NCBI GenBank assembly: GCA_009784025.1
Contig: WQVK01000002.1
Span: forward strand, 1-64,000
Reading direction: 5' to 3'
DNA: 64,000 nt
Origin: Defluviitaleaceae bacterium
GTDB taxonomy: Bacteria > Bacillota > Clostridia > Lachnospirales > WQUN01
Both the position numbers and the translations under genes were made by a program. Shown in pieces: positions 33,181 to 38,202 of this stretch (position 1 is the stretch's first letter; each line of letters begins with the position of its first letter). The notes beneath the pieces are model-generated. The model was not told the DNA's origin. It made no database searches and saw only the letters and a list, made by a program, of their open reading frames with translations.

Positions 33181-33193
33181 AAGGGGAGATTAT

Positions 33194-36100
33194 GTGAAGC
33201 AAATAATATTGGAAAATATTCGGCAGATGGATATTTCTGCGGGGGGTGGGGTTTCTTCCGATGGCGTGCGGGTGGATACTATTAACCATCCCGTGCTGGT
33301 TATTGGGCTGGGGGGGACTGGCATTGATGCTTTGCTGCGGGTGAAGCGTGAGGTGGGGCGGCGGTTTAAGCTGCCAGACAACCCAATTACTAAGCAGAAA
33401 AAGCAAAAACCGGATAATATTGAATATCTTGCCCTGGAAACTAACGAGCATGATAAGAAGAAATACCGCGGCACAACGCTGGACCCATTGGCAGAGATGC
33501 TTGTGTTGTCTAATGCCGGCATAGGGTCTATTTTGAACAACCGTAGTACCATGCCGGATTATATTAAAAGCTGGCTTAGTCCAGAAATTACCATAACAGA
33601 CGGCACTAAAGGTGCAAGCGGGAACCGCCAGGCAGGGCGGTTATTGCTGTTTGAGAAGATTAACACCGTAATAGACGCCATAGACAATAAAATACGCAGC
33701 TTGCGTACAGAAAAAGAGAATAAACTGCTTGTGTACATGTTGTCTGGGTTGTCTGGTGGTACTGGCGGCGGGATGTTCTTGGATATTGCATATATTATAC
33801 GCGGGCTTATGGAGCGTGATTATGGCAGCAAGGGCGTGGATAAGGTTGAAATAATGGGTTATCTTTTTACGCCGGATGTGAATATGGCTTGTGCTGGCTT
33901 GAATGTTCATACAGAAGAATACATACAGCGCAATGGTTACGCGGCCTTAAAAGAGCTGGACTACTGGATGAATATTGAAGAACGCCAGGGGGAGCGGTTT
34001 TGCCAAAAGTATGGCACACGTCTGGATGTGGCCAGCCCTCTTGCACCTTTCAATTTATGCCATTTGGTGGGGGCTAGCAATATCGACGGGGTTTTCATTA
34101 GAGATGCTTATGATTATTGCATGAATGTGACCGCAGAGAATATTGTGAATTTCCTTGCTTTGGAGGAAAAAGAATCCGGCCAGGAATTTGCCATACAGGA
34201 TTACCACAGTAACTTGCTGGCCAATATTGCCACCATGAAAACTACTTTGCCCCCAGGGATGCCCCAGGGCGCAAATTTTTGCTACAACATAATTGGTGCA
34301 TCTGCGGCGGTGCTGCCTACGGCTGGCATTAATGCATATCTTGCATGTGGGATGTTTCGTCAGGTAGCTGGCATGTTTGATGCCAGACCAACTGACCATG
34401 GGCTGGCGCAGTTTGCTCAAGCTGCCAGGCTTGATATCAACGCAATGGGGGAAGAGTTGATGCGGCAACTGCCGCCTATTAAACTTGATTACGCCCATAC
34501 GGATTATTTTAGCTATATGAATGTGATAAAAACCAGTCGGGTGGATATTGACGAAAAATTAACGCAGCAGCTAAACGCTGCCAAGGGCGAACTTGGTGAC
34601 ATGCGCGCCTTTGCCGCCAAAATAATGGATGGCGTAAAGGCCGAGCTTAGGGCTAGTTTTATTAACCCAAAAGAAGGGCCAATATATGCCACAAACCTGA
34701 TATACAGCGAGACCTACCCATGCCTGCTGGCCAGAATAGAAACATGCAAGCAGCATCTGCAGGAGAAAATTTCCAAAACGTCCCAGGATATCCATGCCGC
34801 AGAACTTGCCGCCGCAGATAGGCTGGCCGAGGCAAAGCGGGGGATTTTTATAACAAAGAATGCACGTAAAAACGCTTATATAGAAGCAAAAGTGAGGTTG
34901 TACCAACTACGGCTGCAGGGGGATTGTTATGCGGCTATGGTTGAGGCGTATAAGGAGATTGCAAAGGCGCTGGAGGCCGAGAATGACAAGGTTTACGCGC
35001 CATATGCGCAAATTCTGGAAGAGTTACGTAAGACAGTTTCCCAAAACGAAACCGCGCTTGATGCACCAATGCTAGATGGGCAAAAAAATTACCATTGGGA
35101 TGTAATAACAGTGGCAGATATTGCGCCAGAGATTGATAAAATCATGGAAAATACCGGGGTAGAACTGCTTACAAGAGAGTTAGCAAAATTTATGCTGGAT
35201 GAAACAGAGCGGTTCTTAAGCGAAAGCCGCATGGATATAACCGGGGCGGTGTCGGATTTTATTTATAATCAGTTTAGCGGGGTTTTGTCGCTAACTATGG
35301 CAGAAATGCTGGAAACCCGGTACGGCAGCGAGCTTAGTGTAGAGCGTATAATCGAGGGGGAGATTGCCCCTAGGCTTTTTCGGGATGCAAAGCCTGTGTT
35401 CCACCTGGATAACGCATCTGGGGTGTTTAATTTCCCAAGTTATGGCATGGTTAGCCTGCCACAAAATAGCCCCGAGGTGCAGCGCGGGGTGGCGGCGTAC
35501 CAGAGACAAAACCTTAGCAACCTGCGGTTTAATATCCGCAAAAGCAGCATAACAGACAGAATTTTTTGGCTTAATTCCCAAAATGGAATCCCGCTTTTTG
35601 CCTACAGCCCCATCAAGGTGTACGAAGAACTTTACGAGCGCACAATCCTAACCAAGGAAGGCGTAGGGCGGCATCTGGTAATGACCGCCCAGGAAAGCTG
35701 GGTAAACCTGCCGTCTCCAATCCCAGAGGTGTTATGGGGCGATACTTACCGCAACCCACGGCAAAAAGCCGCAAATGACAATGCCCGCAAGCTTTTTGCA
35801 CAGGGGCTAGAGGCAGGCACGGTATGGGAGCAAAACGACCGCTGGCATATTATAAAAACCGCAGAAGCGCAGAGCTTTCCCCCAGACGCAACTGCCTGCC
35901 GGGCTACGCTGGAAGAAATGCAGGCAAACCTAACCCGCCAGCCAGAATATGTGACAATAATGGGAGCAGCCACTGCCGCCGAGGCCTGCGAGGCATTTAT
36001 CCGAAGCCCAAATCTAATCCGCCTGCTAACCGCAGAAAACGCGAAGCATGAGAAAATACGCAATACAAAAGCCGCGCTGCAAAATAAGCTGGCCGATGGC

Positions 36101-36505
36101 AACCGGGAAAAGGGGCAGCTGGAGGGGTTTTTGAAGGCGTTAGTCTGCGAGGCTATTGTGAAGCGAGGCGCGCTTTATATCTTCGAAAAAGAGTTGCAAG
36201 ATGACCCATGGCCGCCATTTGTAAATTTGATAGACCAGGCAGATTACCCGGAGTTTGCTATGTTTGAGGTGTACAAATGCTTGCCAGAAACCCGCCGCAA
36301 AATAGTGGACCAGAAAGCCATAGAAGCCGTCTTACCGGAGGAAAAACTGCTGATAAATTTGAAGAAATGGCAGGGTAAGATTGCCATTCGTAAGGGGCAG
36401 TTGGATGAAGATATGCCACAGGGCGCAGCCGGGCAGCAGATGTATTTATTTTACAAAAATGCGCTGGTTAGGCTGAATGCGCAGGTTGCGGCTGTTGTAG
36501 GGTAG
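33194..36505 (+). CDS. Large tubulin/FtsZ-like GTPase domain protein (Tubulin_2 type)
   Basis: 1103 residues. The N-terminal Rossmann-like nucleotide domain shows 'VLVIGLGGTGIDALLRVKREV' (34-54, like the GxGGxG start of FtsZ), 'GASGNRQAGRLLLFEK' (140-155, phosphate loop) and the tubulin/FtsZ signature 'LSGGTGGGMFLDIAYII' (186-202, GGTGxG). 'LMERDYG...IMGYLFTPDV' continues the fold. The remaining 700 residues are mostly helical: a charged helical stretch at about 430-620, a region with 'YLACGMFRQVAGMF', and no membrane helix or signal peptide, so the protein is cytoplasmic. Families of giant FtsZ/tubulin relatives in bacteria have been predicted to act in membrane remodelling, but no function is established for this one. 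The start is GTG with GGGGAG 6 bases upstream. It stands alone, divergent from pyc, and is closed by a strong terminator. Confidence 0.8.
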   Translation: MKQIILENIRQMDISAGGGVSSDGVRVDTINHPVLVIGLGGTGIDALLRVKREVGRRFKLPDNPITKQKKQKPDNIEYLALETNEHDKKKYRGTTLDPLAEMLVLSNAGIGSILNNRSTMPDYIKSWLSPEITITDGTKGASGNRQAGRLLLFEKINTVIDAIDNKIRSLRTEKENKLLVYMLSGLSGGTGGGMFLDIAYIIRGLMERDYGSKGVDKVEIMGYLFTPDVNMACAGLNVHTEEYIQRNGYAALKELDYWMNIEERQGERFCQKYGTRLDVASPLAPFNLCHLVGASNIDGVFIRDAYDYCMNVTAENIVNFLALEEKESGQEFAIQDYHSNLLANIATMKTTLPPGMPQGANFCYNIIGASAAVLPTAGINAYLACGMFRQVAGMFDARPTDHGLAQFAQAARLDINAMGEELMRQLPPIKLDYAHTDYFSYMNVIKTSRVDIDEKLTQQLNAAKGELGDMRAFAAKIMDGVKAELRASFINPKEGPIYATNLIYSETYPCLLARIETCKQHLQEKISKTSQDIHAAELAAADRLAEAKRGIFITKNARKNAYIEAKVRLYQLRLQGDCYAAMVEAYKEIAKALEAENDKVYAPYAQILEELRKTVSQNETALDAPMLDGQKNYHWDVITVADIAPEIDKIMENTGVELLTRELAKFMLDETERFLSESRMDITGAVSDFIYNQFSGVLSLTMAEMLETRYGSELSVERIIEGEIAPRLFRDAKPVFHLDNASGVFNFPSYGMVSLPQNSPEVQRGVAAYQRQNLSNLRFNIRKSSITDRIFWLNSQNGIPLFAYSPIKVYEELYERTILTKEGVGRHLVMTAQESWVNLPSPIPEVLWGDTYRNPRQKAANDNARKLFAQGLEAGTVWEQNDRWHIIKTAEAQSFPPDATACRATLEEMQANLTRQPEYVTIMGAATAAEACEAFIRSPNLIRLLTAENAKHEKIRNTKAALQNKLADGNREKGQLEGFLKALVCEAIVKRGALYIFEKELQDDPWPPFVNLIDQADYPEFAMFEVYKCLPETRRKIVDQKAIEAVLPEEKLLINLKKWQGKIAIRKGQLDEDMPQGAAGQQMYLFYKNALVRLNAQVAAVVG

Positions 36506-36511
36506 GGGTGT

Positions 36512-36556
36512 AAAAAAACTCAGTTGGTCGCATTTTGCGACCAACTGAGTTTTTTG
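36512..36556 (+). terminator. Strong terminator built from the GTTGGTCG palindrome
   Basis: A-run, stem ACTCAGTTGGTCGCA, 4-base loop region, complement, T-run. A near copy of the cymR terminator with GCA/TGC in place of GGAA/TTCC at the loop base. It may act in both directions. Confidence 0.85.
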
Positions 36557-36675: not shown

Positions 36676-38163
36676 TTACCCGTACAGCTTATCCAGCATC
36701 TTGCCCACTGCACCAGGCGCGCTGGCAAGCTCCGCGAACAACGCTGTAATCTTCTCCCCAAGGCCAGCATCATATAGGCTCACCCCAAAGGTAGTGGCAT
36801 CGCTTAACATTGGCGCCAGATCAACTATCCCGCCAAATGCCAGCCCTTCCAGCGCTTTAAATGCCTCTGGCAGCCGTGGGTCCGGGCTTACTTCTATCGG
36901 GTTGCCATTATCATCTTTGCCCATCAAATACCGCAGCCAAAGCGCCACAAATAGCGGCGCGGCTTCTAAATCCCCGGTGGGGATGCCTGTTTTCATGCGT
37001 TCTTGCATGGCCACCCCAAAACGTACCGGCACTTTTTGCGAGGTGTCGCAGGCAATGCGGACGGGCTGGTCTGGGATGAAGGGGTTGGGGAAGCGTTCGG
37101 TTAATACGGTGTTCAAGAAGTCCTCCGGGTCGATTATCCCGGGGTTTTCTACCACGGGTAATGCCTCTTGGGCAGATTTTTTTATCAGTTTTACCAGCCG
37201 CGCGTCTTCCATACATTGCCAAATTGTTGGGTAGCCCAGCAACATGCCAGATACCGCCAAAATCGTGTGCAGCGGGTTTAGGCAGGCGCAGACCTTCATC
37301 TGGTCGGTTTTTTTCACGGTTTCGCGGTCTGTCATATATGCGCCGGCGCGCTCCAGGGGCGGGCGGCCATTCGGGAAGTTGTCTTCAATTATCAGATACT
37401 GGGCAGATTCCGCATTTACAAAGCTGGCCACGAAGGTGTGCTTGGCTGTTTCTGTGATTTCTGTGGCGTTGTAGCCATCCGCCGCCAGCATTTTTGCTAC
37501 TTCTGGCGAAGGCCGTGGGGTGATTTTGTCAATCATTGTCCAAGGGTAGGCCTGTTTGCCCAGGTATTCAATAAACTCACGGCTTACAAGCCCGGCTTTT
37601 TCCCAGGATTCTGCCACTGTTCGGATTGCTTGTGCCAGCTGTGTGCCGTTTTCTGCAAAATTATCCATTGTAACCAGCGCAAGGGGCGCAGCTTGGGCAT
37701 TAAAACGCGCCAGCAGCCCTGCCGTAACCTGCTCTATAGTAGTAGCCGCCGCCTGTGGCGAGGCGCAAATATTGGCCGGGTCAACAGCGTAACCCTTCTC
37801 CGTTATGATTATACTAATCATCTGCAAGCTGGGCGCGGCAATTATCCCGTACAGCCTAGCTGTATCCCCAGCAAAAGCATCTGCAATGCTGGCAATCTCC
37901 CGTTTTTCTAGGCTGCCATCTGCCCGTAGCGTAACCCCAAGCGTCCTATTGTCAAACGGCTTAAACGCCTTCTCTATAATCTCTTCGTCGTAAGCCTCGT
38001 ACACGATAATCCCCGTATCTGCCAGCCCAGCATCCAACAAATCCTGCTGCAAACCAGCCACAAAAATACGAAAAATATTGCCAGCCCCAACTTGCAACCA
38101 AGTAGGCCGCGCCAGCGTCTTATCCCGCATGGCGGCTACATCAAACTTAGGTTTATCAATCAT
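36676..38163 (-). CDS. Mannitol dehydrogenase family protein, fructuronate reductase-like
   Basis: 495 residues. The N-terminal Rossmann domain starts 'WLQVGAGNIFRIFVAGLQQD'. The second domain has 'ALVTMDNFAENGTQLAQAI', 'YPWTMIDKITPRPSPEV' (the DRITP-type family motif) and 'KVCACLNPLHTILAVSG' (catalytic N-x-x-H). In hexuronate catabolism UxuB interconverts D-fructuronate and D-mannonate with NADH; the gene next to uxuA supports that role, but a related polyol substrate is possible. AAGGAGGG precedes the ATG at 38163. The frame extends nine codons upstream without a ribosome binding site. Confidence 0.82.
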   Translation of the reverse strand: MIDKPKFDVAAMRDKTLARPTWLQVGAGNIFRIFVAGLQQDLLDAGLADTGIIVYEAYDEEIIEKAFKPFDNRTLGVTLRADGSLEKREIASIADAFAGDTARLYGIIAAPSLQMISIIITEKGYAVDPANICASPQAAATTIEQVTAGLLARFNAQAAPLALVTMDNFAENGTQLAQAIRTVAESWEKAGLVSREFIEYLGKQAYPWTMIDKITPRPSPEVAKMLAADGYNATEITETAKHTFVASFVNAESAQYLIIEDNFPNGRPPLERAGAYMTDRETVKKTDQMKVCACLNPLHTILAVSGMLLGYPTIWQCMEDARLVKLIKKSAQEALPVVENPGIIDPEDFLNTVLTERFPNPFIPDQPVRIACDTSQKVPVRFGVAMQERMKTGIPTGDLEAAPLFVALWLRYLMGKDDNGNPIEVSPDPRLPEAFKALEGLAFGGIVDLAPMLSDATTFGVSLYDAGLGEKITALFAELASAPGAVGKMLDKLYG

Positions 38164-38202
38164 TAGAACCCTCCTTAAATTTAAGCCCACGAGTAAAGCT
38201 TC

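Follow-up and report, generated by a model that had tools for sequence, protein, structure and literature searches.

The genes of the FtsZl1 family are in the majority located in operons, together with genes for vWA proteins and a GTPase, according to the accessible part of the paper that described them (Makarova and Koonin, 2010; PMC2875224). The tubulin theme of the GAP1-N2 systems in Firmicutes comprises two tubulin and two vWA genes, and GAP1-N2 systems were predicted to act in biological conflict (Kaur et al., 2020; PMC7159879). No experimental study of FtsZl1 function turned up in the open literature. Here we describe TUBw, a 1103-residue tubulin-like protein of the FtsZl1/Tubulin_2 family encoded at 33194..36505 on the forward (+) strand of the window, i.e., the whole stretch of 64,000 nucleotides analyzed (contig WQVK01000002.1 of a Defluviitaleaceae bacterium, GCA_009784025.1, positions 1 to 64,000). 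The genome (G000) is a bin that is 82% complete, in which TUBw lies on the contig designated C2. Judging from its orthology, TUBw is best explained as a putative subunit, with a predicted tubulin fold and predicted GTP binding, of the tubulin-type DO-GTPase/GAP1-N2 system, whose parts are dispersed in this genome. The family and the predicted system are already known; what is new is the detached, scattered arrangement.

TUBw resembles the FtsZl1 family, as portrayed in the accessible text of the same paper (Makarova and Koonin, 2010), in having an FtsZ-like domain at the N-terminus, followed by coiled-coil-like helices and a helical C-terminal part, in its length (~1050-1130 residues), and also in that its orthologues are found in operons with vWA and GTPase genes. 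It differs in being detached from the operon: the vWA/GTPase operon, which is a common trait of the FtsZl1/Tubulin_2 family but neither universal nor defining, is absent at the window locus and present for the orthologues, and a step-by-step detachment is not described in that part of the paper. The components described below for the orthologous operons (DO-GTPase2, GAP1-N2/M, two tubulin-fold proteins, two vWA proteins, and an FN3-like protein) are those of the tubulin-type GAP1-N2/DO-GTPase systems (Kaur et al., 2020), from which the present system differs in that the components of the window genome lie on at least three contigs, that the second tubulin has no GTP loop, and that, of the pair of tubulin-fold genes in each operon, PF13809 matches only one.

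The open reading frame (ORF) of TUBw is intact and starts with GTG, and its Tubulin_2 domain (residues 35-391; 33296..34366, +) was matched by Pfam PF13809 with E 2.5e-64 (218 bits vs the curated cut-off of 27), as was also the case in a whole-genome search of G000, while an NCBIfam search with TUBw gave no family. The T1 loop GLGGTG (residues 38-43; 33305..33322, +) is highly conserved in an alignment of 41 orthologues, in which G38, G40, G41, T42, and G43 are invariant and L39 is nearly invariant. The T4 GTP-binding loop SGGTGGG (residues 187-193; 33752..33772, +), which was aligned by profile with GGGTGTG of FtsZ, reads GGTG-[GS]-G in 41 of 41 orthologues, with G or S at the fifth position. 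An AlphaFold2 model built with the 41 orthologues (mean predicted local distance difference test score, pLDDT, 73; predicted template modeling score 0.60) has weak patches at residues 131-142 and in parts of 227-364, and its helical part is mostly of good confidence. The top matches of this model in the PDB (Foldseek; E 6.7e-5, probability 1.00) were FtsZ, CetZ, TubZ, and tubulin, over ~360 columns in the case of FtsZ, CetZ, and TubZ, with template modeling scores normalized by the target of mostly 0.4-0.5. A sequence search of solved structures with TUBw found no relative, and FtsZ was recovered by fold comparison alone. The original prediction, made from the DNA alone, had named a 1103-residue protein at these positions with FtsZ-like motifs at residues 34-45 and 186-197, and had asked for a tubulin-type fold and for a GGTGGG loop kept in close homologues; the ORF and both motifs are there, the Pfam match shows that the motifs did not arise by accident, the model has a fold of the tubulin type, and no close homologue has lost the loop.

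Outside the Tubulin_2 domain, TUBw is mainly helical and has no Pfam match, as had been anticipated for its remaining ~700 residues. Long, coiled-coil-like helices were modeled at residues 511-549 and 555-623 (34724..35062, +; pLDDT mostly 79-92), and a conserved alpha/beta segment of no known family, the second conserved block of the protein family, at residues 749-819 (35438..35650, +), so that the secondary structure of the model gives a layout of N-terminal domain, coiled coil, and helical C-terminal domain. In agreement with the original prediction, nowhere does the chain contain a segment that resembles a membrane helix (the Kyte-Doolittle mean over 19 residues reaches 1.44 at most).

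Canonical FtsZ (~390 aa) is encoded separately on contig C13 of G000, indicating that TUBw is not the division FtsZ. Both have the T1 and T4 loops and the tubulin-type GTPase fold, but TUBw scores below the PF00091 cut-off (11.8 bits vs 33) and matches neither FtsZ_C nor tubulin_C. When TUBw was compared by profile with FtsZ from G000 and related genomes, both loops were aligned (E 1.4e-5); the alignment ended near residue 204, so that the T7 loop is not placeable by sequence. This agrees with the accessible account of the FtsZl1 family, in which the elements beyond H5 were not placeable (Makarova and Koonin, 2010). The motif EFAIQD at residues 331-336 (34184..34201, +), which precedes a strand and a helix resembling FtsZ S7 and the following elements, could be the T7-type acidic, catalytic loop, judging from the pattern and with no support from the profile alignment.

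Among the 61 genomes covered from this family and order, Tubulin_2 genes were found in 30, and many of the 30 have two. From their isolate codes, we take the related genomes with TUBw relatives to be termite-gut metagenome bins. In our tree of 48 proteins, the proteins of the window's family fell into two clean orthologous groups, the operon type (14 entries) and the window type (17 entries), with support of 100 each. The 16 TUBw orthologues in related termite-gut genomes are 46-65% identical to it, and full-length orthologues (41-44% identity) are present in the Bacilli, i.e., in Paenibacillus, Neobacillus, Bacillus, Cytobacillus, Saccharibacillus, and Brevibacillus.

The Bacilli orthologues are encoded in an operon of seven genes, and the order was fixed in 64 of 67 loci: vWA, tubulin, a degenerate tubulin of 643/784 aa, vWA, an FN3-like protein (~210 aa), DO-GTPase2, and GAP1-N2/M. 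Two of the three exceptional loci are short contigs. All seven genes, and one more for a membrane protein, are found in the close relative G003 (L058/L078), with Pfam matches to VWA, DO-GTPase2, and GAP1-N2/M. The FN3-like protein was named from its length, from the place of its gene in the operon, and from what Kaur et al. (2020) describe, the protein itself having no Pfam match. One of the vWA proteins of the ancestral operon is membrane-anchored with a signal-like N-terminus and the other is a multi-helix membrane protein; membrane segments are found in the vWA and SH3-like proteins of the system, and its DO-GTPase2 has N-terminal cysteine motifs. Upstream of the operon, 64 of the 67 Bacilli loci (L172:4962-7730 and equivalents) carry a divergent gene, the product of which has CxxC motifs and a membrane segment; a second gene (~600 aa, one membrane segment) was recognized in 41 loci.

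The third gene of the operon encodes a second tubulin, which is degenerate. The 643/784-aa protein matches no Pfam family; 380 columns of its profile could be aligned with the window family (E 4.9e-7, probability 92.5), and its structure model (mean pLDDT 86) matched CetZ, TubZ, and tubulin with probability 1.00. The GTP loop has been lost, as seen for example in VVFLFVGDKS where TUBw has VLVIGLGGTG.

Our phylogenetic analysis of the window type, rooted with the operon type, showed a nested order: the Bacilli and then G003, both with the operon; genus g12, in which only the tubulin followed by a shortened degenerate tubulin remains linked; and a clade of 11 (the window and the genera g2 and g8), in which the tubulin stands alone. 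Every linkage state arises once on the tree (supports 98-100), and this nesting indicates that the solitary state of TUBw is derived. The partners were kept as unlinked genes in most of the solitary-type relatives. In the window genome, contig C4 carries a cluster of FN3-like, DO-GTPase2, GAP1-N2, and SH3-like membrane protein genes (L137:8272-12102) unlinked to TUBw, and the same four-gene order (FN3-like, DO-GTPase, GAP1, membrane gene) recurs in several relatives. In nine g2/g8 genomes with a solitary tubulin, the shortened degenerate tubulin has a gene of its own elsewhere; this gene is also present in G034, in which the window-type tubulin was not found. The original prediction of a stand-alone cytoskeletal GTPase stands as regards the predicted tubulin/FtsZ-type GTPase domain and the single-gene unit, but not as regards work outside an operon system, because the orthologues belong to a fixed seven-gene operon, the solitary state is derived, and partners occur unlinked in the same genome.

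The window genome has a second Tubulin_2 gene, on contig C12, so that the parts of the system lie on C2, C4, and C12 and not in one neighborhood. This paralogue is 27% identical to TUBw over nearly the full length and has the same kinds of partner; unlike TUBw, it is in an intact operon, without GAP1. The five intact genes (L003:2152-11395) encode a vWA protein with a signal-like N-terminus and a membrane anchor, the tubulin, the degenerate tubulin P625 (625 aa), a 207-aa protein, and DO-GTPase2, and this order was found for the operon type wherever the contig suffices, with one small gene unrecognized in one locus. The profile of P625 matched that of the Bacilli degenerate tubulin (E 2e-12), which places both in one family and gives each tubulin type its own degenerate partner. 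Neither P625 nor the shortened degenerate tubulin matches the window family directly by profile, and the link runs via the Bacilli family.

The two tubulins of one cell also differ at the candidate T7 loop. The acidic pair of EFAIxD, with E331 in 40 and D336 in 41 of the 41 window-type orthologues, is found only in the window type, and the operon-type paralogue of the same genomes has SYTIxS. If EFAIxD is the T7 loop, the difference between the two in the catalytic loop reminds us of alpha- and beta-tubulin. In a bold and improbable reading, these co-occurring GTP-loop tubulins, each lineage with its own degenerate partner, would share out the labor of one dispersed tubulin system, in which TUBw, given such a T7 loop, could stimulate the other subunit to hydrolyze GTP in the way that alpha-tubulin acts on beta-tubulin. 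Apart from these two types, a third, divergent tubulin-like type with its own vWA gene was seen at L040, L043, and L046 (G029, G034, and G036, respectively), and at L043 it is followed by genes for 686-aa, 207-aa, DO-GTPase-like, and 903-aa proteins.

Because most of the partner genes are found elsewhere in most of these genomes, TUBw is probably part of a scattered GTP-driven machine. We consider it likely that TUBw belongs, as a subunit, to a tubulin-like assembly that is linked to the membrane and switched by GTP, and whose parts now act in trans. The ancestor had a single operon for the membrane-anchored vWA protein, TUBw, the degenerate tubulin, the multi-helix vWA protein, the FN3-like protein, the DO-GTPase, and GAP1. 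In the window lineage this operon came apart: the tubulin was left as a lone gene with a terminator to itself, and the FN3-like, DO-GTPase, and GAP1 genes, with that of the SH3-like membrane protein, formed a separate cluster. TUBw, a predicted cytoplasmic protein, would bind GTP and form an assembly in which a degenerate tubulin would probably take part; the DO-GTPase/GAP1 pair may switch this assembly, and the membrane components (vWA and SH3-like) may tie it to the envelope, which it would help to monitor or reshape. The scattering of the parts suggests that tight co-expression is not required.

Several observations weigh against this interpretation. The window-type degenerate tubulin was not found in the window genome, as far as the 82% complete bin goes. 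Clear window-type vWA orthologues were not found outside G003, where the other matches were vWA proteins of 25-34% identity. The window-type DO-GTPase is present in 15 of 17 genomes with the tubulin vs 4 of 20 without it, the Fisher p value of 4.7e-5 after correction taking no account of phylogeny. An earlier p value of 2e-7 was too favorable, as further DO-GTPase typing revealed window-type GTPases without the tubulin in genus g16, three genomes of which (L263, L264, and L265) have this GTPase as a separate gene. Finally, G001 (96% complete) keeps the window-type tubulin (L059:7027-10389), and the DO-GTPase, GAP1, the degenerate tubulin, and the second tubulin were not found there, from which it follows that the protein may act without partners or be a relic in that genome.

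With the same component set, the assembly could instead serve as a threshold switch that triggers damage to the cell on infection, after Kaur et al. (2020), a reading that rivals the membrane-linked assembly only as to the output and that we regard as unlikely. The components do fit the tubulin theme of those authors, with DO-GTPase2 bearing cysteine motifs, GAP1-N2/M, vWA proteins, and tubulins. PADLOC, however, gave no match for TUBw or for the nine Bacilli operon proteins tested, and the reading of TUBw as a defense gene was rejected on this account, as was a viral origin when viral contigs, scanned by short peptide patterns, yielded no relative. Toxic effector domains were not recognized, the window neighbors are metabolic, and the operon order is fixed across several Bacilli genera, unlike that of typical mobile defense genes. 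Among envelope upkeep, membrane remodeling, and defense as candidate outputs, we favor an envelope role of the assembly on the basis of this fixed order and of the lack of a recognized effector, PADLOC match, or viral relative.

Slightly less probable still, in our judgment, is that TUBw took on a new, partner-free role after leaving the operon, a reading in line with the original prediction. Such a protein would explain the single-gene unit with its own terminator, the differing neighbors of nearly all solitary-type relatives, the absence from the solitary clade of any other system gene linked to the tubulin, and the retention of only the tubulin in G001. On the other hand, 15 of the 17 genomes with the tubulin have the window-type DO-GTPase, and the system parts share one history: the pairwise distances of the window-type tubulin agreed with those of the unlinked DO-GTPase, GAP1, and the operon-type tubulin (Spearman 0.80, 0.73, and 0.83, respectively), a concordance that also argues against binning artefacts or separate acquisition. 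Moreover, TUBw keeps 96% of the residues invariant in the other clade members, giving no sign of an altered active site. That TUBw is a decaying leftover of the dismantled operon is very improbable, since, despite some shorter solitary-type relatives (907-941 aa) and the loss of the rest of the system in G001, its frame is open over 1103 codons, no internal stop interrupts the domain match in any of the 17 window-type orthologues, and 46-65% identity is maintained across genera with invariant GTP loops.

A system that is scattered yet co-inherited shows which genes belong together for testing, and points to tractable Bacilli with the intact operon. In the FtsZl1 proteins a GTP-loop tubulin is paired with a degenerate one, and the genomes that represent the successive stages of the break-up amount to a natural experiment on the linkages that have to be retained.

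As for the locus itself, TUBw lies away from the ends of its contig of 93,968 bases. The GTG start is preceded by the ribosome-binding-site-like sequence AAGGGGAG (33181..33188, +). The strong terminator foreseen in the original prediction proved to be an intrinsic one (36513..36555, +), consisting of a perfect 20-bp stem that begins 7 bases after the end of the ORF, a 3-base loop, and a T tract (fold -31.1 kcal/mol, z -8.0). A sigma-70 promoter scan gave no site 5' of TUBw on its strand, with counts not above chance, and an Rfam search at the locus matched no family. The gene for pyruvate carboxylase on the left, and those for a polyol dehydrogenase/fructuronate-reductase-like protein and mannonate dehydratase (uxuA) on the right, are all on the opposite strand, making TUBw a single-gene unit in a metabolic neighborhood. 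The pyc and hexuronate flanks named in the original prediction are thus correct for pyruvate carboxylase and for mannonate dehydratase, which is clear; the adjoining dehydrogenase (36676-38190) matches fructuronate reductase only weakly and is slightly nearer to D-arabinitol 4-dehydrogenase, both far below the curated cut-offs. On contig C4, the four-gene cluster is followed by a 1860-aa ORF that is polyketide-synthase-like, and then by a condensation-domain-like ORF, both named by sequence only.

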